A program made the position numbers and the translations under genes. Positions 10,230 to 38,647 of a stretch of DNA of 38,647 nucleotides are shown here, in pieces. This DNA comes from Candidatus Iainarchaeum sp. (GTDB lineage Archaea; Micrarchaeota; Micrarchaeia; Anstonellales; Bilamarchaeaceae). Where the stretch lies: contig JAQTME010000010.1 of the NCBI GenBank assembly GCA_028714535.1, positions 1-38,647 of the forward strand, read 5' to 3'. Below the pieces are notes generated by a model, which was not told the DNA's origin, ran no database searches, and saw only the letters and a list, made by a program, of their open reading frames with translations. Each line of letters starts with the position of its first letter. The first letter of the stretch is position 1.

Positions 10230-10649
10230 TCATCCCGGCGAGGCGCCCCCTATGGCGCCGCAGATGTCCCCCTGCCCGTAGTAGCTATAATAGAACTGCT
10301 TGCCGAACATGGGGTAGAAATTGACGAGCGCCGTGAGGATGATGGGCCCAACGAGGTAGATGATAGCGCCTATCACGGCCCCGGTCAGCATCGCAGTCGC
10401 ATACGTCGTCGCCCTGGCCCTGGTCTCGGCGCCCATGATCTGCCCTATGGCATATGTGGCACCGGCGAGCACTATGAGCACCATGACCACGGCGCCCATG
10501 ACAGTCTGCGATATGTAGCACAGCGTTTTGAGCGCAGAACTGAGGTTGGACTCGCCATCTGTCTGCGCGAACGCCACCGAAATGAGGCTGAGCACAAGAA
10601 CCGCGAGCGGGAGATACCTTCCGGTTTCGTATAGCCTGACTATCTGCAT
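10230..10649 (-). CDS. VirB2/TrbC-like pilin, copy 1
   Basis: This 139-aa protein has a signal peptide ending near SVAFA|Q, then a short amphipathic segment and two membrane helices joined by a tight basic loop (GAETRARAT). This is the architecture of VirB2/TrbC conjugative pilins. The core MVLIVLAGATYAIGQ..GAETRARAT is almost identical in a second copy at 26122-26523. Both copies keep two cysteines after the signal peptide, one before helix 1 (LKTLC) and one in the C-terminal tail (DIC), which could form a disulfide. I chose the ATG at 10649, preceded by GGTGA at 4 bases; the longer frame starts with GTG at 10667. No assembly ATPase is nearby. Confidence 0.7.
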   Translation of the reverse strand: MQIVRLYETGRYLPLAVLVLSLISVAFAQTDGESNLSSALKTLCYISQTVMGAVVMVLIVLAGATYAIGQIMGAETRARATTYATAMLTGAVIGAIIYLVGPIILTALVNFYPMFGKQFYYSYYGQGDICGAIGGASPG

Positions 10650-10691: not shown

Positions 10692-12257
10692 TCATCCGAC
10701 GCTGCCCAGGAGCATCTTCCTCATCTCTATGGGCTCCAGGTCCCTGAGCGCCTTCACTGCGAAGTCCAGCTTGGCCTCGCTCTCCGCGTAGATGGTGAAC
10801 AGCTTGTCGCCCACGTCCACGCGGTCGCCGCGGCACCTGTGGAGCAGCACGCCCGCGCCCTTGTCGCGCGGCGCGCCTGCGATGCGCGCTATCTTCGCCA
10901 TCGTCTTGTTGTCCACGTGGAATATGCCGCCAGGCACGTCGGACACCACCGTGTGGGTGCATGAGCCGATCGGGATGTCGCCGGCCTTCACTTTCGCGTT
11001 GCCGCCCTGCAGCTCTATTATCTCGCGGAACTTGGCCATCGCCTTCCCGCTGCTGACAATGCCCTCGGCGACCGCGTAGCCCCTGTCCTTCTCCACCTTG
11101 CCGCAGAGCTCCAGCAGCTTGCCTGCCATGAGCAGGCTCTTGTGGCGCAGGTCGTCAGGCCCGCGGCCTTCGAGCACCTCAAGCACGTCAAGGCATTCCA
11201 GCCCGGGGCCGATGCCGTTGCCGACCGGCTCGGCGCCGTCAGTTATCAGCGCCTCGACCTTCATGCCGAGCTTGTCGCTGACCTTGATGAAGTGCCTGGC
11301 GAGCTCGTTGCCGCGCTCCATGTAAGGCACCTTCACGCCGCGGCCCACGGGTATGTCTATGAGCACGTATTCGGCGCCCACGCTCTTCTTCTTGCCCAGG
11401 ATGCTGGCCAGCAGCATGCCCTCGGGGTCAAGGCTGAGCGGGTGCCTCACGCGTATGAGCTTGTCGTCCACGGGCGCGAGCTTCATGCCGCCGCCCCAGA
11501 CTATGGCGCCCTTCGCCTTGAGCACCATGGAGCGCAGTTCCTCCATGTTGAACGTGACGTTGGCGAACACCTCCATCGTGTCCGCGGTGCCGGTCGCCGA
11601 GGTTATGGACCGCGACGACGTCTTCGGTATGTAGAGCCCCGCTGCCGCTATTATGGGGACGATGACCATGGTCGTCCTGTTGCCGGCCACGCCGCCGATG
11701 CAGTGCTTGTCCAGTACCGGCTTCTTGCCCAGGTCCAGGGATTCGCCCGACTCCACGGTCGCGTAGGCGAGCGATATTATCTCGTCGTCGGAAAGCCCGT
11801 TTATGTACGCCGCGGTTATCCATGCCGACGTCTCGATCTCGCTGAGCTTGTCCTGCATTATCTCCCTGACCACTGTCCTTATCTCGGTGTTCGTGAGCGT
11901 GCCCTTGTCCAGCTTCTTCTTTATGAAGCCTATGGACTCCGGCATGTCCATGTGGACCACCTCGAGGGTCTCGCCCTTCTTGAGGTGGTGCGTTGCCGCC
12001 AGGTCGCGGAAGATGCCTACCTCGCCCGGCTCCACTATCTGGTCGCTGACGTCCACTATGGCTATGATGCTCTTGCCCTCGTGGCGCAGCTCGGTGCGGT
12101 AGCCGGAGTAGATGTCGTGCTCCTGCGCTTCCGTCTTGTTCAGCACGACTATGTTCTTCCCCGTGAATATGTCTATGGGCTTTATCTTGCAGACGTATTT
12201 CTTGAGCCTCCAGACATCGACCTTCTGGGCCTGCTGCTTCTCGACGTATTCCGGCAT
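10692..12257 (-). CDS. deoA: AMP phosphorylase (archaeal thymidine-phosphorylase family)
   Basis: This enzyme phosphorolyses AMP (also CMP and UMP) to the free base and ribose-1,5-bisphosphate, the first step of the archaeal nucleotide-salvage/RuBisCO pathway. The 521-aa protein has the archaeal N-terminal extension (about 85 residues) before the phosphorylase core. Core motifs are VLDKHCIGGVAGNRTT (183-196) and KTSSRSITSATGTADTMEV (212-230), the phosphate- and base-binding signature. From memory most homologues have Ser where this protein has Cys186. The start is set by GAGGTG seven bases upstream, overlapping the stop of the R15P isomerase gene (9-base gap). The two genes form one operon. 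Confidence 0.95.
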   Translation of the reverse strand: MPEYVEKQQAQKVDVWRLKKYVCKIKPIDIFTGKNIVVLNKTEAQEHDIYSGYRTELRHEGKSIIAIVDVSDQIVEPGEVGIFRDLAATHHLKKGETLEVVHMDMPESIGFIKKKLDKGTLTNTEIRTVVREIMQDKLSEIETSAWITAAYINGLSDDEIISLAYATVESGESLDLGKKPVLDKHCIGGVAGNRTTMVIVPIIAAAGLYIPKTSSRSITSATGTADTMEVFANVTFNMEELRSMVLKAKGAIVWGGGMKLAPVDDKLIRVRHPLSLDPEGMLLASILGKKKSVGAEYVLIDIPVGRGVKVPYMERGNELARHFIKVSDKLGMKVEALITDGAEPVGNGIGPGLECLDVLEVLEGRGPDDLRHKSLLMAGKLLELCGKVEKDRGYAVAEGIVSSGKAMAKFREIIELQGGNAKVKAGDIPIGSCTHTVVSDVPGGIFHVDNKTMAKIARIAGAPRDKGAGVLLHRCRGDRVDVGDKLFTIYAESEAKLDFAVKALRDLEPIEMRKMLLGSVG

Positions 12258-23086: not shown

Positions 23087-23668
23087 ATGACGGATGACAG
23101 GAACTGGTGCGACTCACGCCAGAAGGCCGGCACGTGCCTGGTGTTCAGGCACAGGCCGATTCCCACCCTCAAGCGGAGCATAATATCCGCGGCCAGGAGC
23201 ACGGGAATGGCCACGACCGTGCAAGAGCTTGAAAAGCTGAGGCGCGTGCTGCGCAACTACAAAACTTCGCCCTGCTCCATATGCAACCGCCTCGGTGAAA
23301 AATTCAAGGACCCGCTGGAGCCCCTCAATGCTGCCACCCAGGTGGCATGGGACATCGCTCTTCGTGAACGGCATGCGGTCCACGGCGCCGCCACGAAAGG
23401 AGGCACGCACGGGTTCATCCTGTCACGCCCCGTGAAAAGGAAGCAGGGCGGCCCCCCCGCGGACAGGGAATTCGCCATCGAGCGCAGGGCCTTCCTGCCC
23501 GGAGCCATCGAGTTCATCATGGTGAAGCTCAAGGGGCTGTTCGGCGGCAAGTCGCTTGCGGTCAGCTGTGCGCGCATCGATGCGTGCAGCGGCACGGCAG
23601 GGGCGCTTATAGAAGATGCGGTGACGGAGTTGCAAATCGACGTGGGCAAGGACGCCTGGAAGGGCTAG
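23087..23668 (+). CDS. Orphan protein, function unknown
   Basis: This 193-aa basic protein has a CxxC pair (SPCSICNRLGEKF) near residue 65, a helical stretch (TTVQELEKLRRVLRNYK) before it, and several further Cys and His residues, so a metal site is possible. No signal peptide or membrane helix. I do not recognise a family. It has its own leaderless promoter behind carB, and its stop overlaps by 4 bases the end of the convergent tldD gene. Confidence 0.55.
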   Translation: MTDDRNWCDSRQKAGTCLVFRHRPIPTLKRSIISAARSTGMATTVQELEKLRRVLRNYKTSPCSICNRLGEKFKDPLEPLNAATQVAWDIALRERHAVHGAATKGGTHGFILSRPVKRKQGGPPADREFAIERRAFLPGAIEFIMVKLKGLFGGKSLAVSCARIDACSGTAGALIEDAVTELQIDVGKDAWKG

Positions 23669-24969
23669 CCTATGGCCACGTTACCCACGCGTATGTGGGG
23701 GCCGCCGTCGCTCACCGGCACGCTCTGCCCGTTCTTGCCGCACATGCCAGGGCTGCCCCCGAAATCCCTGCCGACAGATTCCACGTCGTGCAGCGTCTTC
23801 AGGATGTTGCCGCTTATCGCAGCGTCGCGCAGCAGCCCCTTCTTCTCGCCGCCCCTTATGAGGTAGGCCTCCTCTGCCTTGAACATGAAGCCGCCGGAGA
23901 ACGTGTCCACGCTCCCGCCGCGCATGCCCCTCAGATAAATCCCTTCCTTCACGTCGAAAACGTCGTCAAGCGACGCGTCGCCTTTCCTGAAATAGGTGTT
24001 GCCCATGCGGACGATGGGCACGGAGTCGTATCCCTGCGCCCGCGCATGGCCGTTGGGCTGGAGCCCGAGCGCCTTCGCTGTTTCCATGGAGTTGATGAAG
24101 CCTTTCAGCACCCCGCCCTCCACCAAGACGGTTCGCCGCGCCTGCACGCCCTCGTCGTCGTATGCGTACCTGCCGAAATCGTCGGCCGTGGGATCGTCCG
24201 CGATGCCGACCAGCGCATTGCCTATGCGCTTCCCAATTTTCCCTGCGAGTATGGACTCCCTGTCAAGCACGGCGTCGGCCTCGCACGCATGGCCGACCGC
24301 CTCGTGGGAGAAGACGCCTGTCATCTCAGGGTCGAACACCACCGTGAACCGCCCCTTCGGCGCCGGCGCGGCACGGAGCAGCCGCAGCGCCTTGTCCTTC
24401 GCCCCGCCTGCCACGGACAGGTCTATCTTCCCGAAACCTTTCCGCGACCACGAGCGCGTGGAGCCGCGCTGTATCAGCTCGCCCGAGCGCGCGGTGCATG
24501 TGCACGAGAGATACGTATAGCCCGTCTCCTGGACTATCTCCGCGCCCTCTGAGTTGTAGAATTCCTGCACGCTGCAGGAGTCGCTGCACGACAGCGTGCG
24601 CGCCGCGACGCCCTTCGCCTTCATCCCCCTGCCCGCCTCCAGCAGGGCCTTCACCTGCGCGCCTATGTCAGTATCAGCGGGCCGCTGGCGCACCCGCTTC
24701 CTCACGCATTTCGGCAGCGCCAGCCGTATGCCCCCCCTGCCCAGCAACGCGAGCTTCCGCGCACGTTCGAGCAGGCTTCCCAGGGGCTCGCCGCGGTTGC
24801 TGGACGCGAACCCCCACGAGCCGTTCTCCAGCACCCGCACGCCCATGCCCTCGGACGTGCCGGACGCGTGCCTGACCTCGTCGTTCGTTATCTGCACGTA
24901 GGAGCCCGAGCTGCGCTCTATGCGCAGGTCAGCATAGCCGTATCTCGAGAGGACCCGTTCGTATTCCAT
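23665..24969 (-). CDS. tldD: TldD-family zinc metallopeptidase
   Basis: This 434-aa protein has the TldD active-site motif HEAVGHACEAD (His222, Glu223, His227) and the typical C-terminal CGKNGQSVPVSDGGP. TldD normally pairs with a TldE/PmbA partner that lacks the HExxxH motif; together they form a protease that cleaves unfolded peptides and processes some ribosomal peptides. No tldE is in this window, so it is elsewhere or TldD acts alone. It is the last gene of a run with a Roadblock protein and a KaiC-like ATPase, with its start abutting the Roadblock stop (24969/24970). Confidence 0.9.
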   Translation of the reverse strand: MEYERVLSRYGYADLRIERSSGSYVQITNDEVRHASGTSEGMGVRVLENGSWGFASSNRGEPLGSLLERARKLALLGRGGIRLALPKCVRKRVRQRPADTDIGAQVKALLEAGRGMKAKGVAARTLSCSDSCSVQEFYNSEGAEIVQETGYTYLSCTCTARSGELIQRGSTRSWSRKGFGKIDLSVAGGAKDKALRLLRAAPAPKGRFTVVFDPEMTGVFSHEAVGHACEADAVLDRESILAGKIGKRIGNALVGIADDPTADDFGRYAYDDEGVQARRTVLVEGGVLKGFINSMETAKALGLQPNGHARAQGYDSVPIVRMGNTYFRKGDASLDDVFDVKEGIYLRGMRGGSVDTFSGGFMFKAEEAYLIRGGEKKGLLRDAAISGNILKTLHDVESVGRDFGGSPGMCGKNGQSVPVSDGGPHIRVGNVAIG

Positions 24970-25296
24970 CTACTTCACTAGCGGCCTGGCCTTTTCCGCG
25001 TATTCCAGGACGAGCCTCTTCTCATCCTTGGTCTTGACCATGCCGCAGAATATGTAGTTGCCGAGCGGGACCAGGATGAGGACCGAGTTCTCGAAGGCCA
25101 GCTCCAGCTGCCTCTGCCTGTCGTCCGCCTTCTTCATGAGCGCGTCGGACACGTTTGCCACGGACGCTATGAGGCCTGTGCTCAGCTCGTTGAGCGCCAT
25201 GGTGGAATGCACGGGCACCCCGTCCACGCGCACCAGCGCCCCGCCTATCCCCCTGTCCTTCATCTCGTTCAGGATCGCTTCTATCTGGTCAGCCAT
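24970..25296 (-). CDS. Roadblock/LC7-domain protein
   Basis: This 108-aa single-domain protein has the Roadblock layout: an N-terminal helix (IEAILNEM), a strand-turn-strand (GALVRVDGVPVHST), a central helix, a strand pair (SVLILVPLGNYIFCGMV) and a C-terminal helix. These proteins dimerise and regulate small GTPases or ATPases (for example MglB with MglA). No Ras-like GTPase is nearby. The gene sits 9 bases after a KaiC-like ATPase gene, which is its probable partner. Confidence 0.8.
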   Translation of the reverse strand: MADQIEAILNEMKDRGIGGALVRVDGVPVHSTMALNELSTGLIASVANVSDALMKKADDRQRQLELAFENSVLILVPLGNYIFCGMVKTKDEKRLVLEYAEKARPLVK

Positions 25297-25305
25297 GTGA
25301 TCACA

Positions 25306-26013
25306 TCATATGATGGCGAGGCCGGTCGGCCCCACCTTTATCGGTATCATGATGTCCGCATCCGGCACCCTCAGGAAGAACTTCCCGCCGGTGTCCGTGA
25401 TAGTGTATATCTCGTCCATCCCCTGCTCCAGCAGGCTGACGAGCTGCCTGTCGTGCACGCCCTCGTCGATCAGGAACAGCGTGGTCGCGCCAGCGCTCTT
25501 CAGCCGCCCCTCTATCACCGTGAGGAACTTCCTTATGGAGTCCTGCGGGCTGTACACCACGAAGGTGGAGAGCGTGTCGAAAACGACGCGCATCCGCTTG
25601 CCTGCGCTGGCCTTCATGGCCTCGTTGAGCATGAGCGAGAGGTCGTTGAGCGCGCCCGGGCCTGAGACCACCATGACCTTGGGCGTGGGCTCGGCCGCCT
25701 TGCCGAGCGTGGCGCTGTAGCAGTCTATGAAATAGATGTTCGGCCTGTCCAGGCTTATGCCGAACGTCGCCGCCTTCCTTATTATGTCCGCGGCGGACGA
25801 GTTGCCGCAGATTATGTACGAGTTCTCGTTGCTGGCGGCCGCAGCCGCGAAATGGTACGCGAGGGCCGCCTTCTCGGTGCCGCTCGGCCCTATGACTATC
25901 GCGTTGCCGGGGTTGGCGAACCCCCCCTCCAGTATAAGGTCCAGCTCAGCGACGCCTGCGGGCATCCTGTTCTTCTTCAGGATGGGCATCTGCTCGTTCA
26001 CTCCCAGGTCCAT
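25306..26013 (-). CDS. KaiC/RadA-like RecA-fold ATPase with degenerate P-loop
   Basis: This 235-aa protein has the KaiC-like order: GVAELDLILEGGFANPGNAIVIGPSGTEKAALAYHFA, then a strand-turn (SYIICGNSSAADIIRKA), and a Walker B-like MRVVFDTLSTFV. The Walker A is altered: GPSGTEKA instead of GxxGxGK(S/T), with Glu and Ala at key positions, so ATP hydrolysis is doubtful although the Lys remains. In archaea such stand-alone KaiC-like proteins often serve in signalling. It heads the Roadblock/TldD run. The start at 26013 is fixed by a TATA box at 26033-26043, about 25 bases upstream. Confidence 0.75.
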   Translation of the reverse strand: MDLGVNEQMPILKKNRMPAGVAELDLILEGGFANPGNAIVIGPSGTEKAALAYHFAAAAASNENSYIICGNSSAADIIRKAATFGISLDRPNIYFIDCYSATLGKAAEPTPKVMVVSGPGALNDLSLMLNEAMKASAGKRMRVVFDTLSTFVVYSPQDSIRKFLTVIEGRLKSAGATTLFLIDEGVHDRQLVSLLEQGMDEIYTITDTGGKFFLRVPDADIMIPIKVGPTGLAII

Positions 26014-26032
26014 GGCACTAATGGGGTTAGAA

Positions 26033-26043
26033 GTTTTATAAAG
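26033..26043 (-). promoter_or_regulatory. TATA box of the KaiC-like/Roadblock/tldD operon
   Basis: CTTTATAAAAC on the minus strand, centred about 25 bases before the ATG at 26013; leaderless. Confidence 0.65.
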
Positions 26044-26054
26044 TCATGCTAAGG

Positions 26055-26110
26055 CGTAAGGGAGAAAAGGATGAAAAAGGGAATAAAAGGAAAATAAGGA
26101 AAAAATTAGG
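26055..26110 (-). terminator. T-rich terminator of pilin copy 2
   Basis: Directly after the pilin stop the minus strand carries a series of T-runs interrupted by C and A over some 50 bases, the usual archaeal intrinsic terminator pattern. It separates the pilin gene from the KaiC-like operon on the same strand. Confidence 0.6.
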
Positions 26111-26121
26111 CGGGCCCCCCT

Positions 26122-26523
26122 TCAGGTCGTTGTCGTTGTGAATGCGCAGGGGTCTGTGGTCGTACCGCTAATCTGCGACAGGTTGGGCAGCAGCGCCCTG
26201 ATTATGATCGGGGTTATGAGGTAGATGATCGCCCCTATCAAAGCTCCCGTCATCATCGCAGTCGCCCAGACCGTGGCCCTCGCCCTGGTCTCTGCGCCGA
26301 GCACCTGCCCTATGGCGTATGTCGCGCCTGCGAGCACTATGAGCACCATGATGGCCGCACCGAGGAACATCTGCGACATGTGGCACAGGTCCTGCAGCGC
26401 CGTACCGAGCGATGAGCTGGCCGATTGTGCGAATGACATTGAAACCAGATTTATGGCGAATAGCGCCAGTATCAGGTATTTCCCTACTTTATTGACTGCG
26501 TTCATGCAACCTATAATATCCAT
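26122..26523 (-). CDS. VirB2/TrbC-like pilin, copy 2
   Basis: This 133-aa paralogue of the 10230-10649 protein has a signal peptide ending near SMSFA|Q, a short segment with a Cys (LQDLC), and two membrane helices around the basic loop GAETRARAT. The tail has a second Cys (DPC) and ends in a run of Thr. The helix-loop-helix core differs from copy 1 by only a few conservative changes. It is monocistronic, with GGTGA four bases before the ATG, an upstream TATA candidate (26577-26590 or 26541-26549) and a T-rich terminator. The architecture fits conjugative pilins and the archaeal Ced/Ted DNA-import pili; function is inferred. Confidence 0.7.
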   Translation of the reverse strand: MDIIGCMNAVNKVGKYLILALFAINLVSMSFAQSASSSLGTALQDLCHMSQMFLGAAIMVLIVLAGATYAIGQVLGAETRARATVWATAMMTGALIGAIIYLITPIIIRALLPNLSQISGTTTDPCAFTTTTT

Positions 26524-27691: not shown

Positions 27692-28375
27692 ATGTACAAA
27701 AACATCCTGGCGATATTAGGCATCCTCCTTGTAGGAGCCAGCATAGTAATGGCTATATCAGGTGCAACCACCACCTGGGTTTCTGATACCCGCTGGTCTG
27801 GAAACACAAGCGGCAGCGACATCACGCAGGGCGGCAACATCACGGCCCTGAACATAGCCGCGAGCGTGCTCACCAGCAAGTGGGCGTCCTACTACGGGAA
27901 CGTGACAGGTAGCATAGTCCTCGGCGACGGCAACGCGAACGTCTACAGCTGGACCCTGAGCGAGGGTTCGGTCGGCGAAGTCTGCGTTTCGACAAACACC
28001 AGCTTCAACTTCACAAGCGCCGCGACCGCAACAGGCGCCAACATCAACACCGCATGGGGCTTCACAGCGACCGATGCTGACAGCGGCAACAACACCTACC
28101 GGTCTTCGAACTGCAACATCAGCTTCGCGCAGGCCAACATCACCAACACAGGCAACGTCTCGCTCCAGGGCAGCAGCAACTTCAACAACTGCGTAATACG
28201 GAGCGGCACAGTCGCTGCCGGCACCACTGGCTTCCTGGCGTTCTGCACCAATCTCCAGCCCCGGTCCAGCGGCCTCAACTACGCCGGCCAGCCGGCCAAC
28301 TACGAGATAATGGTCGCGACCAACAACGCCCCCGGCGCAACCGAGACGTATTACTTCTACGCCGAGCTCAGCTAG
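27692..28375 (+). CDS. Secreted surface protein, probably abundant
   Basis: This 227-aa protein has a signal peptide (MYKNILAILGILLVGASIVMA) and a mature part of low charge, rich in Asn, Thr, Ser, Gly and Ala with many N-x-S/T sites and four cysteines. Its beginning (SDITQGGNITALNIAASV, then WASYYGNVTGS) resembles the start of the 30225 protein (NDTTQGGNITTVNLAIPQ), so both carry one module. There is no C-terminal membrane anchor. A consensus TATA box, a good ribosome binding site and a long T-rich terminator make it a self-contained, probably highly expressed unit, perhaps a sheath or S-layer-like component (inference). Confidence 0.7.
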   Translation: MYKNILAILGILLVGASIVMAISGATTTWVSDTRWSGNTSGSDITQGGNITALNIAASVLTSKWASYYGNVTGSIVLGDGNANVYSWTLSEGSVGEVCVSTNTSFNFTSAATATGANINTAWGFTATDADSGNNTYRSSNCNISFAQANITNTGNVSLQGSSNFNNCVIRSGTVAAGTTGFLAFCTNLQPRSSGLNYAGQPANYEIMVATNNAPGATETYYFYAELS

Positions 28376-28380
28376 ACGGT

Positions 28381-28413
28381 GGTTATTTTTTTATTTTATA
28401 TTTTATTTTTAAC
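28381..28413 (+). terminator. Long T-rich terminator after the secreted protein
   Basis: Three T-runs of 4-8 bases within 33 bases follow the stop at 28375, as expected for a strong archaeal intrinsic terminator. The A/T-rich end of this block may also supply the TATA element of the next gene. Confidence 0.65.
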
Positions 28414-28469
28414 CCATTCAAAAGCAGCAGGGCAAAAGCCATGAAATTTCAGACATGCCGGGTGAAACC

Positions 28470-30215
28470 ATGAGACTCGCCATCCTGTTCATGCTCCTTA
28501 TCTTCGCGACGGCATACGCCGAGGACTACGTCGCCATAAACTCCATGGACGGGCGCGACGTCCTGTCAGGCATCTTCTACGGGAATGTCAAGGGCGAGCA
28601 GGTGAAGTTCATGCCCGTCCCCAGCGGCAACAACGACCTCTTCGCCGCCAAGGTCGGCCAGGGCCATTCGATACTCCTCATACAGTCAGACAAGCCGGTC
28701 AGCAGCTTCGTGGAGAACTCGCTGAAGGCCAACAACAACACCGTGGAGGTATACACATCCACCAATGCAACGGTTACGAACCTGGACCTGGCTAGGCGCT
28801 CCGGCGCCGAAAGGTTCATCGTCGTCGACTCTGCCTATTCAGACAGCGCGCTTTCAGTGCTGCCATACGCCAAGTTCACGAAGGCCTACGTCCTGCTGGC
28901 AGACAAGAACAACGCCGACGAGGTCAAGTCCATAGTCGCAGGCAAGCAGGTCATGATATACGGCCTCGTGGACAAGGAGGTCTCGGCAGCGCTCGCGCCC
29001 TACAGCCCGGAGATCGTCGGCAAGGGCGAGGACAAGTTCGAGGACAACATCGCGATAACCGACCGGCTGATGAGCGAGTCGCATGCCAACCGCGCCATAA
29101 TGATAGACGGCACTTTCATAGAGGAGGCCATCGCGGCAGGAGACCAGCCGCTCATACTCATCGGCACGCTCGTGCCACAGCCGACCTATGATTTCGTCAA
29201 GCAGAAGGTCAGGGACGGTCAGCTCCTGCAGGTCATGCTCATAGGCAACCAGCTCGTCGTGCCGGTTTACGACATGCGCGAGCGCATGAAGAGGGAATTC
29301 CAGGCAGAGGGGGTCGACAAGACCTTCGGGGTCATAGTCAAGTTCGCGCAGGTCATACCAAGCGCAGGCACAGGCGTGCTCGTGCTTGACACGTTCCACA
29401 TGCCCGCATACAAGCCCCTGCTCAACATAAGCGAGGTCACATACAACCGGCAGTCGGCCAAGGTTATGGTCTCAGTCGGGAATATCGGCGAGGGCGCAGC
29501 CTACTATACGAGCGAGGTGCGCGTCAAGGTCAACGGCGCTGACTTCAAGGTCTTCGCAAGCAACGAAACGAAGCTCGTCGAGCGCGGCGAGCAGGTCGGC
29601 ATGGAATACCCGCTGGACCTGTCCACTGTGCCTGAAGGCAACGTGACCGCGCTGGCCCTGGTCAAATACGGCCTGTCCAAGGCGTCGCTCGAATCATTCG
29701 TCTCCAAGGAAGGCCCGCTCACGACCATAAGCTACGTGGACGCGTCCAACGTCAGCGTGCAGTTCGCCAAATACGACCGCGACAACCGGCGCATGCTGGT
29801 CACGCTGCGCAACAACGGCGCCCAGGCCGCGTACGTGTTCTCCAGGGTCAGCCTGATGCTCGGCGGCCAGCCCACCAACATAAGCAGCGCCGCGACCCGC
29901 ACGGTCGAGCCGGCATCGCTGGTGGTGGAGGAGTTCCCGCTGGAGCTCGGCGAAGCCGACCTCTCGGCCAACAGCAACGTATCCGTGTTCATCGACTACG
30001 GCGGAAGGCCGGGCTTCCTGGCGAAGCACGCCCAGTACATAGTGCCGCTGGAGTCTCCTGCCAACCCGTTCCTGTTCGCCATAGTGCCGCTCGCATTCCT
30101 GGCATTGATCCTCGCAGCGGCGTACTTCATCTTCGTGCGCAAGCCCGGAAAGGCGGGAGAAACAGAAACCGAGGCCGAGTCCAAGCCGGCCAGCAAAGCC
30201 GCCCGCAGAAAATAG
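28470..30215 (+). CDS. Membrane-anchored extracellular protein
   Basis: This 581-aa type I membrane protein has a signal peptide (MRLAILFMLLIFATAYA), a large ectodomain, one C-terminal membrane helix (about residues 533-556) and a short charged cytosolic tail. The N-terminal half has alternating strands and helices (SGAERFIVVDSAYSDSAL, AYVLLADKNNADEVKSIVAG) reminiscent of the cell-wall-binding repeat 2 fold; the C-terminal half looks like two beta-sandwich domains (EVTYNRQSAKVMVSVGNIGEG; YDRDNRRMLVTLRNNG). I chose the ATG at 28470, four bases after GGTGA. The next gene starts 9 bases after its stop. The function is probably surface architecture or adhesion. Confidence 0.75.
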   Translation: MRLAILFMLLIFATAYAEDYVAINSMDGRDVLSGIFYGNVKGEQVKFMPVPSGNNDLFAAKVGQGHSILLIQSDKPVSSFVENSLKANNNTVEVYTSTNATVTNLDLARRSGAERFIVVDSAYSDSALSVLPYAKFTKAYVLLADKNNADEVKSIVAGKQVMIYGLVDKEVSAALAPYSPEIVGKGEDKFEDNIAITDRLMSESHANRAIMIDGTFIEEAIAAGDQPLILIGTLVPQPTYDFVKQKVRDGQLLQVMLIGNQLVVPVYDMRERMKREFQAEGVDKTFGVIVKFAQVIPSAGTGVLVLDTFHMPAYKPLLNISEVTYNRQSAKVMVSVGNIGEGAAYYTSEVRVKVNGADFKVFASNETKLVERGEQVGMEYPLDLSTVPEGNVTALALVKYGLSKASLESFVSKEGPLTTISYVDASNVSVQFAKYDRDNRRMLVTLRNNGAQAAYVFSRVSLMLGGQPTNISSAATRTVEPASLVVEEFPLELGEADLSANSNVSVFIDYGGRPGFLAKHAQYIVPLESPANPFLFAIVPLAFLALILAAAYFIFVRKPGKAGETETEAESKPASKAARRK

Positions 30216-30224
30216 GGTGGCCGG

Positions 30225-31274
30225 ATGCTCCCCCGCGTTCTTATCGTCCTCCTCCTGTTGCCAGCGCTCGCGTTCGCAGGCAATGACACGACCCAGGGGG
30301 GCAACATAACCACGGTCAACCTGGCAATACCCCAGAACTCCTCATGGCACGGCGTCGTCGGCACCCTGTCGCCTGCCCCGGCCGTGCCGTTCAGCATCAA
30401 CGCCACGCCGGGCAACATGACCAACACCGTGATAACCTCCGGCTCCGGCTCGGCCCCATACGGCGTGAACGGCTCCATATGGCTGCTGTTCTCCAACTCA
30501 TCCACCCAGATTACGTCGCTGTCGCCCGGCAGCCTCGCATCGCTCGACCAGTTCATAGGCGCAATCGGGCAGAACGCATCGTCCACATTCACGGCCAACA
30601 CCACGTTCATCATCGGCAACTTCACGATCGCAAACGTGCCGACGGCATACACCCTCGCGCCCGTCCCCACCACGTTCCGCATGGGCTACCTGCGGGACCA
30701 GAACGGCAACATCGTCATAGCAGTGCAGGCGGTGAACCGGAGCTCCGGGTTCAACGGCTCCCTGTTCGACTTCCAGCTCATGCTCCCCACGCAGAACGGC
30801 ACGGCGGTGGAATACTACCTGACGGTCATAGTGAAGGGGAACCTCCCGCCGAACCCCCCGCCCCCTCCGCCGCCGCCAGGGCCGAGCCAGGGGGGAGGCG
30901 GCTCGCACACGCCCTATTACAACGAGACGAGGAACGCCACGCCGGTTAACATAACCAACATCACCAACGTCACGTGCATAGCCGAGATATGGTGCGGCGA
31001 GTGGGGTGCATGCGTGGACGGGTTCCGCTACCAGTCATGCACGGACCTGGCCAACTGCAGCGGCATCGAGATATTCCGCTCAGAGCGCTGCGGGGTCCCG
31101 CCAGGCGGCATAGAGCCCGAAGTGCCGCCCGGAAAGCTGATACCAATCGTGCTGGAACGCGAGTTCCCGTGCCTCATTTACCTCCTCCTGCTTATTCTGT
31201 TGCTGCTTATGCTGTTTTATCTGTGGAGAAGGGGCAAAAAAGAGCGGGAAAAACAGGCTGCTTCTACGAGATAA
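30225..31274 (+). CDS. Membrane-anchored surface protein with proline linker and Cys-rich domain
   Basis: This 349-aa protein has a signal peptide (MLPRVLIVLLLLPALAFA), then the TQGGNIT module shared with the 27692 protein, and an Asn/Thr-rich beta domain. A polyproline-glycine linker (PNPPPPPPPPGPSQGGGG) follows at about residues 208-225. Next is a small Cys-rich domain with WCGEWGACVDGFRYQSC and two or three more Cys, resembling thrombospondin-type W-x-x-W-x-x-C modules, then a C-terminal membrane helix with a basic tail. It forms an operon with the upstream gene. The layout is that of a stalked adhesin. Confidence 0.75.
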   Translation: MLPRVLIVLLLLPALAFAGNDTTQGGNITTVNLAIPQNSSWHGVVGTLSPAPAVPFSINATPGNMTNTVITSGSGSAPYGVNGSIWLLFSNSSTQITSLSPGSLASLDQFIGAIGQNASSTFTANTTFIIGNFTIANVPTAYTLAPVPTTFRMGYLRDQNGNIVIAVQAVNRSSGFNGSLFDFQLMLPTQNGTAVEYYLTVIVKGNLPPNPPPPPPPPGPSQGGGGSHTPYYNETRNATPVNITNITNVTCIAEIWCGEWGACVDGFRYQSCTDLANCSGIEIFRSERCGVPPGGIEPEVPPGKLIPIVLEREFPCLIYLLLLILLLLMLFYLWRRGKKEREKQAASTR

Positions 31275-31295: not shown

Positions 31296-31359
31296 TTTTT
31301 CTGAGATATGTTTCCGGTAGTGTGCAATGGGTCCATATCGTGACCAAAGGGGAGTGTTT

Positions 31360-34300
31360 ATGCTAGAGCGCAACCACAAAACCTATGCGTTCTTCCTTAT
31401 CATCCCGCTGCTCGTCTCAGTCACCACACTTATCGCTAATCTCCCAATCGAGAACCGCACGGTGAACGTGAGCTACGTCGAAGGGCTCAGCAGCGACTTC
31501 TCCAACATGCTGCTCGAGGTCATGACCTCCAACGGCTCATACGCCGCACCGTACGAGATCCTGGACAAGCAGGACGGCAGGTGGGCCGCCGTGCGCCTGC
31601 CGCTGCCCGAGGGCAACTACTCGCTGAACGTCCTCGCCTCCGCAGGCAACGCGAGCGTCATCCCGTCGGCATACGGCCCGGAGTTCCTGGAGATAACGTA
31701 TTTCGGCGGCCTGGAGCCGGACTTCTCCAACCTCGCCATCCAGTTCGTGGACAGCAACGGCGACACGTCGGACATCCCATATTCCATCATCGCCCTCGAG
31801 AAGGGCAAGTGGGCCACGATATCCCTGTCGCGGCCGCCCATGGCCGGGGAATCCGTCTCGGTGCTGATACAGCAGCCCGTCGAGATGGAGCCCCAGCCCG
31901 ACTCCCGGCAGCCTGCCGGCGAAGGCAGCCCGTGGGTGTGCCCGGCGCAGCCGGCAGCCAACGATTCGTTCGACAGCATCGCAATCCGCCGCACGGCCCA
32001 CGGCCCGGTCTCAGCGACATTCGACGGCTGCGGCGCTGAGATAGACGGCGAGGCATACGACCTGCTGGCCTCGAACGCCACCGTGAGGGTCATCGCCGAG
32101 GGCGGCGGCAGCTTCAACCCGCAGGGCGAAGGCGTCATCGCCAAGCATGCGCTGCGCAGCCGCGGCATGCACGTGCTCGAGATACGCCGCGACTCGCTCG
32201 CGGCGCTCATCGAGGCCGGCGGCACGAAAATCCACCTGGACAGGCCCATGGACATCTCGCTCACGGAAAGCATCCCGCTCATAAGGGCCGACCAGGCCAG
32301 GGCCGCATTCGGCCTCACCGGCGCGGGCATGTCGGTGTGCCTGCTCGACACGGGGGTGAATGCAGCCGCGCCGCAGTTCGACGGGATGGCGGCCAGCGGC
32401 CACGACTTCGTGAACGACGACAACGACAGCATGGACGACAACGGCCACGGCACCCTCATGGCATCCACGATACATGCCATCGCGCCCGAAGCGAAGATAA
32501 TCGCGGTCAAGGTGCTCGACTCGTCAGGACACGGCTATTCGTCCGACATAATCGCGGGCATCGACTACTGCAGGCAGCTCGCCGCCAACGATTCCGGGCT
32601 GCGCATAATCTCGATGAGCTTCGGCGGCGGCAGCTTCACCGGCTGGTGCGACGGGGACCCGCTCTCAATCGCTGTTGAGGACGCATACGAAGACGGCATC
32701 CTCCCCATCGCCTCGTCAGGCAACGGCGGAAGCGGCGGCATAACCGCGCCGGCGTGCGCCATGAACGCCACAGCGGTCGCATCCACGTCAAAAACCGACA
32801 CGCTCTCCCCGTTCTCCAACATCAACCCTATGGTCGACCTGCTCGCCCCTGGCGAAGGCATAACCGCCGAAGGGCTTTTCGGCCCGCAGACGATGTCGGG
32901 CACATCTGTGAGCGCAGCGCACGCCGCAGGCGCAGCAGCGCTCCTGTGGCAGACCGCCCCTGACAGCGCGCCAGCGGAGATAGGGCAGCGCTTCGCCACA
33001 ACCGGCATCCCGGTCTGGGCCGGCAGCGCGTACTACCCGCGCATAGACGTGCTCAACGCGATAACGAACAACCTGACATCCATCCCGGAGAAGCCGCCTG
33101 TGAACGGGAGCAACGGCACGGCCGGCGAATTCACCGCGGCCCTTGCCGTGACCAGCATCAATCTCAACGCCACCTCGCCCAACAACAAGACGACCGACGA
33201 CCTGACCTGCAACTACGCCGTGGATGCAGGCACCGCCACAGCCGCGGTGGCATGGTACAGGAACGGCGCGCCGCTGGGGCTCCTTTACATGCCGTTCGAG
33301 GGGAACTCGTCCAACGCGCTGCTCGACTATTCAGGAAACGGCGCCGACGGGGCGAATTCAGGCGCGGTGTGGAACGCCACCGGCGGCCCGGACGGAAACG
33401 GCTCATTCGAGTTCGATGGCACAGCGTCATACATCAACGCGCAGACTTTCTACAACTCGACATTGAGCCAGCTTACGGTGATGCTGTGGATACGGCCCAA
33501 GGCGCAGAGCGACTGGAGGGACATAATATCCAAGGAGACCGGCGACTACGCGACCGCGGGCTTCGGGCTCAGGCGCTCGGCTGCGGACCAGTTCGCCTTC
33601 ACGCTGTACAACGGGGGAAAAAGGGAGCTCCTGGCGCCGAGCGCATTCGATGATGCCGGCAGCACGTGGTACCACGTGGCAGGCACGTACGACGGCACGA
33701 CGATGAGGCTCTATGTCAACGGCGCAGAGGTGAGCACCCTGGCCACTTCCGGCAACATCGTCAATTCGATTTACAGCCTGCAGATAGGAAGAAGGACGAG
33801 CGCTTCGGACAGGTGGATTTACGCCACGCTGGATGACGTGAGGGTATACAACTATTCCCTCTCAGCCGACCAGGTCCTGGCGATATACCAGGGCAGGCCG
33901 GATTGGATATCCCAAAGCGAAACCGAAACAGGGGACGTCTGGCAGTGCAGGGTCACGCCGTTCTCCTCAACCGCGGCAAACTCCACAGTGAGCTCGAACA
34001 ACCTCACAATCATCGTCCCGCCGCTGGGATGGGACCGTGCAAGCCTCGGCATCGGCACGGTTTTCCAGGGTTCATCAGCCGCAAGCAACGCGACCGTCAC
34101 CGCCTCAGGCAACCACGTCGGAGTGACCGTCGCGGCCATATCAGGCAACGGCACGGGCTTCATCACCGCCAGTCCCACGTCACTCGGCAACATGAACGAC
34201 ACCGACACGGGCCCGGTCCAGTTCAGCTGCGCCCCGTCCCAGGGCCAGGCAACCGGCCACTACGAGGCAGTCTTCAGGGCCAACTCGTCCAGCTTCACCT

Positions 34301-37300
34301 CCGGGGACGACATCACGGTGACGTGCACGGTCGCAGCCCCGACCACCTTCTCGGTCCAGAAATACTACCTTCCCATGGCAGCCGGAACGACTTCAGCGTA
34401 CGCGCCGTTCACGGGCGGCCAGACCAATGTCAATTCCGTGCCCTTCGCCACCATCTCGCTCAACGAGACCACCACGACCGATTACTGGCGCCAGTACGTG
34501 CCAGACATATACTTCAACTCGAGCGGCGTCATCGTGGAAAGGAACAATGCCGCGTCGTCAACCATGAACGTCATCGTCACAGTGGTCCAGTTCGCCTCGG
34601 ACTCCGTCAGGGTGCAGGACGGCACATTCAGCCTGGGCACAGGCTCGACCACCGCCTCCATCGGGAGCAGCGTCAACCTGTCCCGTTCAGCCCTCATATT
34701 CTATTACGAATCTACTGACGCCACGGACAACTACCAGGACAACTCAATCCGGGGCCGTATCAGCGGCGTGAACGAGCTGAACTTCAGCCTGGACCCGAGC
34801 TCCACCACCGGAACGAAGTCAGGGCACTGGTACGTCTTCGAATCCCTTGACGGCGCATTCACAGTCCAGAGCACGGCGCTCAATTTCGCTTCGGCTGGCA
34901 CCACCGCGACAGGGGCGATAAGCGCAGTCCAGATGAACAAGACCTTCCTGATAGCGTCCTATTCGACAAGCGAGACTTCAGACGACCCAAGGGACGGCTC
35001 GCTTACGGTCAACCTGACATCCACCACCGTGGTCACGGGCACGCGGCTGGGGACGCCCGCGGCGGTCCTGAACGCCACGGTATACGCGATCACCTTCGCA
35101 GGTAACGAACTAGTCCAGAGGGGCTATTTCAACTACGGGACCGCAACCACCCAGAGCGGCACCATCGCCGCAGTCAATACGAGCCTGTCGATGGCATGGA
35201 ACCCGGTGCTCACCGGGCGCATGGCGAGCGATTCCACCGCAAGCTACGGCCTGGTGTCCGCATTCCACCGCCTCAACCTGACGAGCTCCACGGCCCTCAC
35301 TGGCACGAAGGACAGGAACATCGGCAATACCGCCGGCGCCTGGGAAGTCGTATCCTGGGTTGCGCCATCGTCCGTCTCCAGCCTGGCGTGGAACCAGTCC
35401 ACGCTCAGCATCGGCAGCGTCGTGCAGGGGGCGTCCTTTGCCCTGAATGCGACGCTCACCTCGACAGGCAACAACGCCAACGTGACGGTAAGGGCGGTCT
35501 CAGGCAACGGCACTGCCTTCATCAACGCCAGCCCCACGTCGTTGGGCGACATGAGCAGCGGCAACAGCACCGGGGTCAGGTTCAACTGCTCCCCCTCCGC
35601 AAGCCAGGCAGCGGGCTACTACGCGGCGGTCTTCAAGGCCAATTCGTCCACCAACGGAACCGGTAACAACATCACGGTGAGCTGCACCGTGGCCGCGTTC
35701 GCGCTCAACCTCGCCTGGAACCAGAGCGCCATCGCGCTTGGTAGCGTAGTCCAGGCGATGTCCAACGCCAGCAACGCGACCGCCACCGCGACAGGCAACC
35801 ACACGGCCGTCAAGGTCACCGCGGTGGCAGGCAACGGCACGGGAGTCATCACCGCCAGCCCCACGTCGTTGGGCGACATGAGCAGCGGCAACAGCACGGG
35901 CGTCAAGTTCAACTGCTCGCCGAGCATATCCAACGCCTCGGGCTACTACGAGGCCACGTTCAAGGTCAATTCGTCCAACTACAGCTCAGGCAGCAACATC
36001 ACCGCGGGCTGCACCGTCCTGGCGCTCAACCTCGCCTGGAACCAGTCAACCCTCGGCATCGGCAGCGTCTCCCAGAACACTTCAAGCACGAAGAACGCCA
36101 CAGCCACTGCGACCGGCAACCACGCGAACGTTGCCGTGGCAGCCGTCGCAGGCAACGGGACCGCGTTCATCAGCGTCACGCCGGCATCAATCGGGAGCAT
36201 GGCCAACGGCCAGGTGCAGCAGGCCATGTTCAACTGCTCGCCGAACGCGTCACAGGCGCTCGGCTACTACGTGGCCGTATTCAAGCTCAATTCCTCCAAC
36301 CTCACTTCTGGCAGCAACATCACCGTAAGCTGCACGGTCGCGCCACCGGTCATGCACAATTTCACCATCATCGTGGCGTATGACCACAACGACACCTGGT
36401 TCGGCGACGTTATAGTGAACGCCACAGTGACCAACGAGGATTCCCAGGCCGTGACGGGCGCGTCAGTCAACCTGACAGTCACCCCGCCGACAGGAAGGGG
36501 CGTCTATCCGCGGACAGTGGCGATGCTGGACGACGGCGCCTGGCCCGACGCGGCCGCAGGCGACGGCATCTATGCCACCCTGTTCGACGTGTCGCTGTCC
36601 GGCGCGGCCTACACCAACGGCACCATGGGCCTGAACGTCTCGGCGGTGAAGAGCGGCTACAACGACGGCTACAACGACACCCGCTCGTTCTTCACATTCG
36701 TCGTGAGGCGCTGGTACGGCTCAGCCACGCAGGACGTATATGCCGATTACCGGCTGACAGACAACGGGAACGGCACATGGACGCACAATGTCACGGACGT
36801 GCGCATCTACAGCGCCAACACCGCAGCCAACAACGTCACGGTGAAAATCCCGATAATCAACCAGCCGAACATCTACGGCCTGCAGGCCAGGGGGGTCAAC
36901 GCCTACAAGGTCCTGGGCAACAACACCATAGTGCTCTACCTGAACGTCACCTCAGGCGGCACCACCATGGTGAACTATTCGTTCCTCGCGGCCAGCGACC
37001 TCGTGCTCACCCTGAACGACAAGTACCAGACATCCACAATCGGCGAGAGGATAGGCAAGAACGGCTTCGTGGTGTGGAACAGCCACATACAGAAGGAGTC
37101 GTTCGGCATCGGCTTCGCCGCAGAGGGCTCCGACGCCACCAACGGCCAGCACTCGGTCGGCGAGGACGTGGGCATGAAGGTCGTGGACGGCGAGAGCGCG
37201 GACAACCAGAGCTACACCGTGGACTGCATGGAGCGCACCGGCATAGTGGAGAACTCCACAGGCACCATGGCATACGCAACCTGCGCGAGCTGCGGCAGCT

Positions 37301-38647
37301 ACTACGAATGGAACATCCACTGGAAGAGCCCGGACGACGCTTCCTCGTCCCACCTGGGCGGCGAGATAGTATCCGCCACGCCAGACAACGTCACGGTCAG
37401 GATGACCGACCACGGCTCCACGAACGAGTGGGGCTCCACCAGCCGCTACAACGTGACCAAGTCGCTGACATTCTACGCCGGCAAGAACTACGAGAAGCTG
37501 AACTTCACGATAATGAACATCGGCACAGTGCCGCTCAACACCACGCTGGTCTGGGGCAGGGAGCCGTGGGTCTATGCCGGCGGCTCAACGGACCAGAACG
37601 ACCGCGGGGCAATACCAACTGGCTGGCCGCAGGTCAACGAGGAGGATTACACCTGGCAGGAGCTGACGAGCAACTGGTTCGGCTTCTACGACGATGCCAC
37701 CAACTACGGGACGGCCGTCATATTCCCGGCGAACACCAGCGCCGGCGCACCGACCGTGTGCGCACATCTGGATTCCCTCCGCACCCCTTTAGGCACCAGC
37801 GCAGGGCAGAACCTCTGGCCATGGACGATAACCCATGCGGCAGATCCCAATGCCATGCTGGACGACATGTTCTGCAACTGGCAGTTCGGCGCGCTCGCGG
37901 CAGGCGCCAACGCATCCGCGGTATTCTACCACTGGGGCGGCTACAGCGGCACAGGCAACGGCCTGATGGACGAGATGGCCACGGCCGCGGACGAGATAGA
38001 CGCGGCCACGCAGGGCCAGTATCTCTCCTGGAACCAGACCGCGCTTGCGCTCGGCAACGTCTCCCAGGGGGCGTCCTTTGCCCTGAACGCGACCGCAACG
38101 TCCCACGGCAGCAACGCCAACGTTGCAGTCGCCGCGGTGGCAGGCAACGGGACCGCGTTCATCAGCGCCACGCCCGCCAGCATCGGCAGCCTCTCCCCCA
38201 GGCAGTCGCAGCAGGTCAGTTTCAACTGCTCGCCGTCGGCAGGCCAGGCAGCTGGCTACTACGCGGCGGTCTTCAACATAAACTCCTCCGGCTACGCCGC
38301 AGGCGCCAACATAACCGTCAGCTGCAACGTCACCGCAGTGGCCGCTGTCAACTGCCCCACGATAGCCTCCGGCGGCACCTATGTGCAGCAATTCAACTAC
38401 ATCGGCGCGCCCAACAGCGCCTCTCCATTCACGCTCAACAACTTCACGTGCGTGAAGATAGCCGCGTCCAACGTCGTCTTCGACTGCAACGGCTTCAACA
38501 TGACCGACAACGGCACCTCGAGCACGGGCACGAGCTACGGCATCCTGGTCAACGGCTCCCTCACCAACGTGACGGTGAGGAACTGCCAGGTATCCAACTA
38601 TTCATACGGCGTGTTCATCAACGCCTCCAACAACAGCAACTTCATCA
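31360..38647 (+). CDS. Giant surface subtilase with LamG, Ig-like repeats and beta-helix (runs off the window)
   Basis: The frame is open without a stop from 31360 to the window end, at least 2429 residues. In order: an N-terminal hydrophobic signal or anchor (AFFLIIPLLVSVTTLIA); a beta-rich pro-region; a subtilisin domain with Asp330 (LLDTGV), His363 (NGHGT), oxyanion Asn455 (SSGNG) and Ser516 (GTSVSAAHAAG); a LamG/concanavalin-like domain (about 644-845, ending LDDVRVYNYSLS); Ig-like repeats of about 105 residues (889-992, then three in tandem at 1342-1661, then 2222-2326); a choice-of-anchor-like domain (MLDDGAWPDAAAGDGIY); a unique region of about 480 residues; and the start of a right-handed beta-helix (VFDCNGFNM, then NVTVRNCQVSNYSYGVFI). 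It is rich in N-x-S/T sites. It is predicted to be an exported protease and adhesin. A start at 31327 is possible. Confidence 0.9.
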   Translation, partial: MLERNHKTYAFFLIIPLLVSVTTLIANLPIENRTVNVSYVEGLSSDFSNMLLEVMTSNGSYAAPYEILDKQDGRWAAVRLPLPEGNYSLNVLASAGNASVIPSAYGPEFLEITYFGGLEPDFSNLAIQFVDSNGDTSDIPYSIIALEKGKWATISLSRPPMAGESVSVLIQQPVEMEPQPDSRQPAGEGSPWVCPAQPAANDSFDSIAIRRTAHGPVSATFDGCGAEIDGEAYDLLASNATVRVIAEGGGSFNPQGEGVIAKHALRSRGMHVLEIRRDSLAALIEAGGTKIHLDRPMDISLTESIPLIRADQARAAFGLTGAGMSVCLLDTGVNAAAPQFDGMAASGHDFVNDDNDSMDDNGHGTLMASTIHAIAPEAKIIAVKVLDSSGHGYSSDIIAGIDYCRQLAANDSGLRIISMSFGGGSFTGWCDGDPLSIAVEDAYEDGILPIASSGNGGSGGITAPACAMNATAVASTSKTDTLSPFSNINPMVDLLAPGEGITAEGLFGPQTMSGTSVSAAHAAGAAALLWQTAPDSAPAEIGQRFATTGIPVWAGSAYYPRIDVLNAITNNLTSIPEKPPVNGSNGTAGEFTAALAVTSINLNATSPNNKTTDDLTCNYAVDAGTATAAVAWYRNGAPLGLLYMPFEGNSSNALLDYSGNGADGANSGAVWNATGGPDGNGSFEFDGTASYINAQTFYNSTLSQLTVMLWIRPKAQSDWRDIISKETGDYATAGFGLRRSAADQFAFTLYNGGKRELLAPSAFDDAGSTWYHVAGTYDGTTMRLYVNGAEVSTLATSGNIVNSIYSLQIGRRTSASDRWIYATLDDVRVYNYSLSADQVLAIYQGRPDWISQSETETGDVWQCRVTPFSSTAANSTVSSNNLTIIVPPLGWDRASLGIGTVFQGSSAASNATVTASGNHVGVTVAAISGNGTGFITASPTSLGNMNDTDTGPVQFSCAPSQGQATGHYEAVFRANSSSFTSGDDITVTCTVAAPTTFSVQKYYLPMAAGTTSAYAPFTGGQTNVNSVPFATISLNETTTTDYWRQYVPDIYFNSSGVIVERNNAASSTMNVIVTVVQFASDSVRVQDGTFSLGTGSTTASIGSSVNLSRSALIFYYESTDATDNYQDNSIRGRISGVNELNFSLDPSSTTGTKSGHWYVFESLDGAFTVQSTALNFASAGTTATGAISAVQMNKTFLIASYSTSETSDDPRDGSLTVNLTSTTVVTGTRLGTPAAVLNATVYAITFAGNELVQRGYFNYGTATTQSGTIAAVNTSLSMAWNPVLTGRMASDSTASYGLVSAFHRLNLTSSTALTGTKDRNIGNTAGAWEVVSWVAPSSVSSLAWNQSTLSIGSVVQGASFALNATLTSTGNNANVTVRAVSGNGTAFINASPTSLGDMSSGNSTGVRFNCSPSASQAAGYYAAVFKANSSTNGTGNNITVSCTVAAFALNLAWNQSAIALGSVVQAMSNASNATATATGNHTAVKVTAVAGNGTGVITASPTSLGDMSSGNSTGVKFNCSPSISNASGYYEATFKVNSSNYSSGSNITAGCTVLALNLAWNQSTLGIGSVSQNTSSTKNATATATGNHANVAVAAVAGNGTAFISVTPASIGSMANGQVQQAMFNCSPNASQALGYYVAVFKLNSSNLTSGSNITVSCTVAPPVMHNFTIIVAYDHNDTWFGDVIVNATVTNEDSQAVTGASVNLTVTPPTGRGVYPRTVAMLDDGAWPDAAAGDGIYATLFDVSLSGAAYTNGTMGLNVSAVKSGYNDGYNDTRSFFTFVVRRWYGSATQDVYADYRLTDNGNGTWTHNVTDVRIYSANTAANNVTVKIPIINQPNIYGLQARGVNAYKVLGNNTIVLYLNVTSGGTTMVNYSFLAASDLVLTLNDKYQTSTIGERIGKNGFVVWNSHIQKESFGIGFAAEGSDATNGQHSVGEDVGMKVVDGESADNQSYTVDCMERTGIVENSTGTMAYATCASCGSYYEWNIHWKSPDDASSSHLGGEIVSATPDNVTVRMTDHGSTNEWGSTSRYNVTKSLTFYAGKNYEKLNFTIMNIGTVPLNTTLVWGREPWVYAGGSTDQNDRGAIPTGWPQVNEEDYTWQELTSNWFGFYDDATNYGTAVIFPANTSAGAPTVCAHLDSLRTPLGTSAGQNLWPWTITHAADPNAMLDDMFCNWQFGALAAGANASAVFYHWGGYSGTGNGLMDEMATAADEIDAATQGQYLSWNQTALALGNVSQGASFALNATATSHGSNANVAVAAVAGNGTAFISATPASIGSLSPRQSQQVSFNCSPSAGQAAGYYAAVFNINSSGYAAGANITVSCNVTAVAAVNCPTIASGGTYVQQFNYIGAPNSASPFTLNNFTCVKIAASNVVFDCNGFNMTDNGTSSTGTSYGILVNGSLTNVTVRNCQVSNYSYGVFINASNNSNFI
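34024..34335 (+). repeat. Ig-like repeat 1 of the giant surface protein
   Basis: First and most diverged copy of the ~105-residue module: SLGIGTVFQG, then ITASPTSLGNM, then a Cys pair (VQFSCAPS and ITVTCTV) that could form the domain disulfide. Confidence 0.75.
35383..36342 (+). repeat. Tandem array of Ig-like repeats 2-4
   Basis: Three head-to-tail copies begin at 35383, 35710 and 36031 (109 and 107 residues apart), each starting LAWNQS and ending with a Cys in ITVSCTV or ITAGCTV. The copies are also similar as DNA: 35536-35579 and 35866-35909 differ at only a few bases, pointing to recent duplication or gene conversion. Confidence 0.85.
38023..38337 (+). repeat. Ig-like repeat 5, separated from the array
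   Basis: It starts LSWNQTALALGNVSQGASFALNAT and ends NITVSCNVTA. Its QGASFALNAT stretch is nearly identical in DNA to that of repeat 2 (around 35427), although about 2.6 kb apart. Confidence 0.8.

Follow-up and report, generated by a model that had tools for sequence, protein, structure and literature searches.

The contig analyzed here (38,647 nucleotides, hereafter the window) comes from a Candidatus Micrarchaeota MAG of the order Anstonellales, with 1.14 Mb on 34 contigs and a completeness of 91%. It encodes two short proteins with the look of conjugative pilins, which raises the question of whether this archaeon builds a pilus of the conjugation type and, if so, with which machinery. At roughly two chances in three, we read these proteins, P0001 and P0002, as paralogs of the VirB2/TrbC superfamily that form the filament of a reduced, Ced/Ted-like type IV secretion system (T4SS), which would be fixed in the chromosome and core to Anstonellales and much of Micrarchaeota and whose likeliest cargo would be imported DNA. 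The reading is based on family members that pass the Pfam TrbC cut-off, a near-universal spread, VirB4/HerA-type ATPases, a two-helix partner protein, the fusion of pilin domains to a polytopic protein termed POL2, and a conserved cysteine pair.

Two pilin-like proteins in the window

Both open reading frames proposed by the first-pass annotation were recovered with exact boundaries on the minus strand. Copy 1 (P0001, 139 aa) occupies 10230–10649 and begins with ATG, with a possible alternative in-frame GTG 18 nt upstream; copy 2 (P0002, 133 aa) occupies 26122–26523. According to hydropathy, each possesses a signal-peptide-like segment followed by two long membrane helices. The predicted signal peptide of copy 1 covers residues 1–28 (10566–10649, minus strand, as are all features of the two genes below) and ends at AFA/Q by hydropathy and the AxA rule, and that of copy 2 covers residues 1–32 (26428–26523) and ends at SFA/Q by hydropathy. 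An AlphaFold2 model of P0001, computed from a 62-sequence alignment (pLDDT 80), folds as a hairpin of helix 1 (residues 33–71; 10437–10553) and helix 2 (residues 74–110; 10320–10430). The GAETRARAT loop, residues 73–81 of copy 1 (10407–10433) and 76–84 of copy 2 (26272–26298), is identical in both. Thus, signal peptide, helices and loop are shared just as first proposed, and the arrangement of a signal peptide and two hydrophobic helices around a short charged loop is that of VirB2/TrbC pilins. The two proteins share 61% identity over 88 aa with a BLASTP E-value of 3e-36, so their likeness is not due to chance; they diverge at the N- and C-termini, outside the core.

The proposed kinship with VirB2/TrbC pilins is supported, although by way of relatives. 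The window copies themselves fall under the cut-off of the Pfam TrbC family (PF04956; 27.9 bits), with 17.9 bits (E = 0.0038) for P0001 and 11.8 bits for P0002. Across the order, 12 genomes exceed this cut-off, compared to 3 of 14 control genomes, and four of the passing places (G051:C15, G016:C15, G082:C112 and G006:C124) are members of the window pilin family. The T4SS_pilin family (PF18895) matches 6 of 35 family members, and a third, shorter pilin in the same genome (C7:5455–5778) scores 26.2 bits against its cut-off of 26.6. From this transitive evidence we conclude that the window pilins are homologous to conjugative pilins.

Other searches were less informative. Searches against PHROGs and NCBIfam gave nothing meaningful, and the pilin profile retrieved only proteasome noise from the PDB sequences, with no solved archaeal conjugation pilin among the matches. 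The pilins of Ced and Ted likewise have no recognizable sequence likeness to each other (PMC9905601). A comparison of the pilin model with PDB folds returned no pilin and only generic helix pairs (DgkA and others; E > 0.5), a search that is uninformative for a hairpin.

Spread of the family and its cysteine pair

The pilin family was found in 81 of the 84 genomes of the order Anstonellales, including all 28 good genomes, and a profile search across the phylum Micrarchaeota detected it in 262 of 301. Arrays of pilin genes occur in many genomes, such as five consecutive copies in G020:C4, and further arrays in G063:C15 and G036:C183. The 62 aligned pilins split into 19 clusters at 50% identity, so the family does not stem from one recent duplication. 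Among them, the core is constant and the tails are variable; the invariant positions include G69, Q70, G73, A74, E75, T76, R77, R79, A84, T85 and the tail Cys130. As to the two pilin types envisaged initially, the two copies stand, but the count was too low: the genome also encodes the third, shorter T4SS_pilin-like protein, in addition to pilin modules fused to another protein (see below).

Two cysteines do lie at matching places in the window copies, as had been noticed. Cys44 near the start of helix 1 (10518–10520) and Cys130 in the tail (10260–10262) of P0001 correspond in position to Cys47 (26383–26385) and Cys126 (26146–26148) of P0002, which has an additional Cys6 within the signal peptide. 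All 62 aligned relatives possess one cysteine 28–32 residues N-terminal to the loop motif and another 42–57 residues C-terminal to it. At the background cysteine rate elsewhere in these pilins (0.43%), a cysteine would be expected in the 11-residue first zone of only ~5% of sequences. The membrane topology that we infer would place both cysteines on the outer face, which fits a predicted disulfide bond. Separately, three pilin relatives (L066:9821–10426, L081:9974–10450 and L095:11908–12516) bear cysteine-rich C-terminal tails of ~50–100 residues with many CC pairs; judging from their sequences, these tails might be likened to small knotted domains shown on the pilus.

Gene neighbourhoods and partner proteins

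An AMP phosphorylase gene of the DeoA type (10692–12257, minus strand), a neighbor and not a pilus gene, lies 42 bp upstream of pilin 1. Downstream of pilin 2, in conserved synteny, sits a gene for a KaiC-like ATPase (25306–26013, minus strand). It is part of a minus-strand block (23665–26523) of pilin 2, the KaiC-like ATPase, a 108-aa roadblock-like protein with no Pfam hit and TldD, which is kept in ~25 loci of relatives. On the other strand, the plus-strand gene at 31327–38646 encodes a giant secreted surface protein of at least 2,440 aa, with the contig ending inside the gene; inspection by eye suggests a part resembling subtilisin-type serine proteases, another resembling LamG, and long repeats of Ig-like domains. 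It is preceded at 27692–31274 by three secreted proteins in a row (227, 586 and 349 aa) that are rich in Asn, Thr and Ser.

As the first-pass annotation had suggested, the pilin genes are scattered away from the assembly machinery. In the order-wide lists, only 25 of 147 pilin genes are on the same contig as the 2-TM protein of the VirB4 units described below; the nearest is 4 kb off and few lie within 12 kb. The neighborhood count in the named loci is near the chance expectation by our own estimate, and overall the linkage between pilin and VirB4 is little better than chance. A few individual loci stand apart. In Ca. Anstonella LFW-35, one such unit (unit A) and genes for R15P isomerase, AMP phosphorylase and the pilin are consecutive on one strand, and the order of the last three matches that at window copy 1. 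In L108, the pilin gene precedes unit A by ~0.2 kb in the same orientation, and two TrbC-positive places (G054 and G056) are ~1 kb from the 2-TM gene. Clustering of pilin genes with VirB4 was nonetheless rejected as a general rule for the order, and L108 and LFW-35 are taken as supporting cases and not as proof.

The pilus reading had been tied to the presence of a VirB4-like ATPase or another T4SS homolog in the genome, and two AAA_10 ATPases were indeed found, each in a unit with a 2-TM partner. On contig C24, unit A starts with the 2-TM protein (269 aa, with two TM helices at its N-terminus) and continues with an ATPase of the AAA_10/HerA/TraG superfamily; after it come, in this order, one small membrane protein, one with a coiled coil and a large surface protein. 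In unit B, on contig C7, a polytopic protein and a 2-TM protein are followed ~5 kb on by an ATPase and a coiled-coil protein. The two units are paralogous, with 41% identity between the ATPases and 37% between the 2-TM proteins. Both ATPases exceed the Pfam cut-off for the AAA_10 and TrwB domains, and that of C24 also for P-loop_TraG. Large secreted or membrane-anchored proteins, none above a Pfam cut-off, are also encoded near both units (L012:1075–3915 and L013:11753–13489).

Against PDB, VirB4 (4AG5) is among the matches of the ATPases, whereas HerA entries score higher; the assignment to VirB4 therefore rests on the pair of ATPase and 2-TM protein. The latter is present in all 83 of 83 genomes of the order and immediately precedes the ATPase in those unit A loci that were checked across the order. 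An alignment of the 2-TM partner gave no match at the sequence level. Its AlphaFold model, a weak one from two sequences only (pLDDT 53.5), retrieves TrwK/VirB4 of R388 at ranks 1–7 of 350,542 PDB chains, with a best E-value of 2.7e-3, a probability of 0.99 and a TM-score of only 0.27. From this model, the 2-TM protein may be read as the N-terminal domain of VirB4 that carries VirB3-like TM helices and has become separate from its ATPase. Such a division recalls Ced, in which the VirB4 N-terminal domain is spread over CedB and CedD (PMC11868833).

Contig C3 (L010:7346–13938) encodes a row of five polytopic proteins of ~360–510 aa, which are related to each other and, in several cases, have similar short end tails. 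They are also related to the polytopic protein of unit B, giving six paralogs, of which the one in unit B sits beside the 2-TM partner. None has a match in Pfam or, by sequence, in PDB; it is in their architecture that they are like CedA/VirB6. The second C3 protein, POL2 (513 aa), begins with two pilin domains, marked by GAETRARA and GADTRARA, which precede the polytopic body. These modules share 45–49% identity with P0001 and align with the pilin profile at an HHalign probability of 99.6%, compared to 0–6% for the other polytopic paralogs; the pilin domain is thus demonstrable only in POL2. The fusion occurs in 13 of 21 aligned POL2 orthologs (the genus g1, in addition to g3 and g12), whereas orthologs of other families are unfused and keep the body alone (~310–350 aa). 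For Ced, homology between the CedA N-terminus and the CedA1 pilin has been reported, together with the proposal that one derives from the other (Beltran et al., PMC9905601). Judged by sequence, the POL2 fusion is a more obvious case than CedA/CedA1, and such a pilin-pilin-channel fusion bears on a possible common ancestry of VirB2 and VirB6, a question raised in the same work.

Proposed pilus, rival readings and known systems

How the pilus would be built and used, from assembly, topology and disulfide to cargo and direction, we infer as follows. The signal peptidase would cleave the pilin precursors, and the hairpins would reside in the membrane with both cysteines outside and the charged GAETRARA loop in the cytoplasm, later facing the lumen. 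The split VirB4, namely the 2-TM/N-terminal-domain protein and the ATPase, might extract the pilins and feed them through a polytopic base resembling CedA/VirB6, from which a helical pilus would grow. The pilin ends could be locked by a disulfide within or between chains. In the window's genus, the filament is probably nucleated or anchored by the channel-like, POL2-type protein to which two pilin domains are fused. DNA from neighboring or host cells would be the likeliest cargo.

Could the pilin-like proteins instead form an unrelated membrane family with no tie to T4SS? Weak Pfam matches to several such families were obtained (Yip1, cytochrome bd and OadG profiles), of which Cyt_bd_oxida_II occurs in 13 of 35 members with a best E-value of 1.6e-4. 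However, those of the window copies stay under cut-off and match only short stretches of multi-TM proteins, as is typical of hydrophobic composition, and the Cytochrome bd II and Yip1 matches were set aside on this ground. TrbC, by contrast, is the one family whose curated cut-off members were shown to pass, T4SS_pilin is matched, with the third pilin just short of its cut-off, and the fusion to a Ced-like polytopic protein also favors T4SS, so that we consider an unrelated family very improbable. A nearer alternative takes the hairpins as accessory subunits of a T4SS base (CedA2-like or VirB3-like) or as minor adaptors. It would suit POL2, a membrane protein that holds the same pilin domain, and CedA2, which likewise has two TM helices (PMC9905601), but the signal peptides, tandem arrays, variable tails on a constant core and TrbC-passing members are better suited to filament subunits; an accessory role is accordingly unlikely in our view.

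Filament subunits of the VirB2 type, together with VirB4-type ATPases, are also typical of conjugative elements, which would make the window proteins the mating pilus of a mobile element. However, the pilins are near-universal in the order, none was found in viral contigs or in plasmid or phage records, and chromosomal synteny is conserved, with copy 2 at one site in many species. In the 91% complete genome, a PF03432 relaxase (the relaxase family searched), a VirD4-type coupling protein (PF02534) and ComEC (PF03772) are absent. For lack of these genes and of viral, plasmid or phage copies, the apparatus looks like a domesticated, chromosomal system, and a mobile element hardly seems credible. 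Distinct secretion ATPases of the type II/IV kind (PF00437) are encoded as well, so the organism may also have a type IV pilus, much as Ups and Ced occur together in Sulfolobales. More serious is the reading in which the same pilins and T4SS-like machine serve protein secretion or host anchoring instead of DNA import, with the pilus used by an ectosymbiont for attachment or injection. DPANN archaea are often host-dependent (PMC12892359), and a host-interaction role was proposed for the VirB4-bearing giant surface proteins of nanohaloarchaea (PMC10266531). In Patescibacteria, which form a comparable radiation of episymbionts, a T4SS is retained with arrays of VirB2-like pilins, mostly without a relaxase, and host attachment or protein transfer is suspected (PMC12102498). 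Moreover, large surface proteins share operons with the machine genes. Against this, Ced and its relatives, the nearest archaeal systems of known function, move DNA (PMC11868833), and neither an effector nor a host was found. We thus hold secretion or anchoring to be a minority prospect, and DNA exchange, taken by analogy, to be a first guess at somewhat below even odds.

Returning to the Ced/Ted-like reading, a pilus for DNA import or contact is probably made throughout the lineage, where it would be new. A search of the literature outside subscription journals found no description of a T4SS or Ced-like apparatus in Micrarchaeota; in archaea, published cases are those of Crenarchaeota and of conjugative plasmids, along with a VirB4-like protein of nanohaloarchaea. 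If true, an ultra-small lineage prone to symbiosis would count a pilus machine among its core components, which would offer a testable route for the acquisition of DNA, nucleotides or host contact, and the invariant cysteine pair predicts a disulfide-locked pilus of the conjugative type. A bolder and rather doubtful version may be put as follows: with a core, double, split-VirB4 Ced-like pilus, Micrarchaeota, as archaea of small genome and often dependent on hosts, would take DNA or nucleotides from other cells; the base protein of one genus would be a natural fusion of two pilins with a VirB6/CedA-type channel, a snapshot of a common origin of pilin and channel; and a universal disulfide would stabilize the pilus.

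Ced imports and, in part, exports chromosomal DNA. By description, the system proposed here resembles that of Sulfolobales (CedA, CedA1, CedA2, CedB, CedD and CedE), which is a reduced T4SS with VirB4 N-terminal homology spread over two proteins and a CedA paralog, CedE (PMC9905601, PMC11868833). Nevertheless, CedB and CedD both have ATPase domains, whereas here the two TM helices and the N-terminal domain would sit in one protein and the ATPase in a second; CedA1 is unprocessed, whereas the window pilins have predicted signal peptides; and the CedA N-terminus is homologous to CedA1, whereas here the pilin domain is fused twice and recognizably so (45–49% identity). Also likened by description is Ted (TedC, TedA and TedB), described only in Thermoproteales, which is chromosomal and combines a two-helix pilin, a CedA-like polytopic protein and a VirB4-like ATPase (PMC9905601). 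The signal peptide of TedC, which looks cleavable, ends in AVA/QA, compared to AFA/Q and SFA/Q here, and the parts of Ted can sit in distant loci, as here (PMC9905601). Unlike in Ted, VirB4 appears to be split into two genes, the machine exists as two units, several pilin genes and no fewer than six polytopic paralogs are present, and the cysteine pair is universal.

Among bacterial systems, the T4SS of Patescibacteria is similarly reduced, widespread in small-genome episymbionts and mostly devoid of a relaxase, with pilin and VirB4 often apart and arrays of VirB2-like pilins recognized by PF04956 and PF18895 (PMC12102498). It differs in being bacterial and MPF_FATA-related, with separate homologs of VirB3 (PrgI), VirB6 and VirB8 and often a coupling protein, and the portion of that report used here makes no mention of VirB4 splitting (PMC12102498). 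Bacterial VirB2/TrbC pilins in general share with the window proteins their size, signal peptide and two helices with a short loop. Compared to them, the archaeal family is chromosomal, with no relaxase found, and is set apart by an invariant GAETRAR loop and an invariant cysteine pair.
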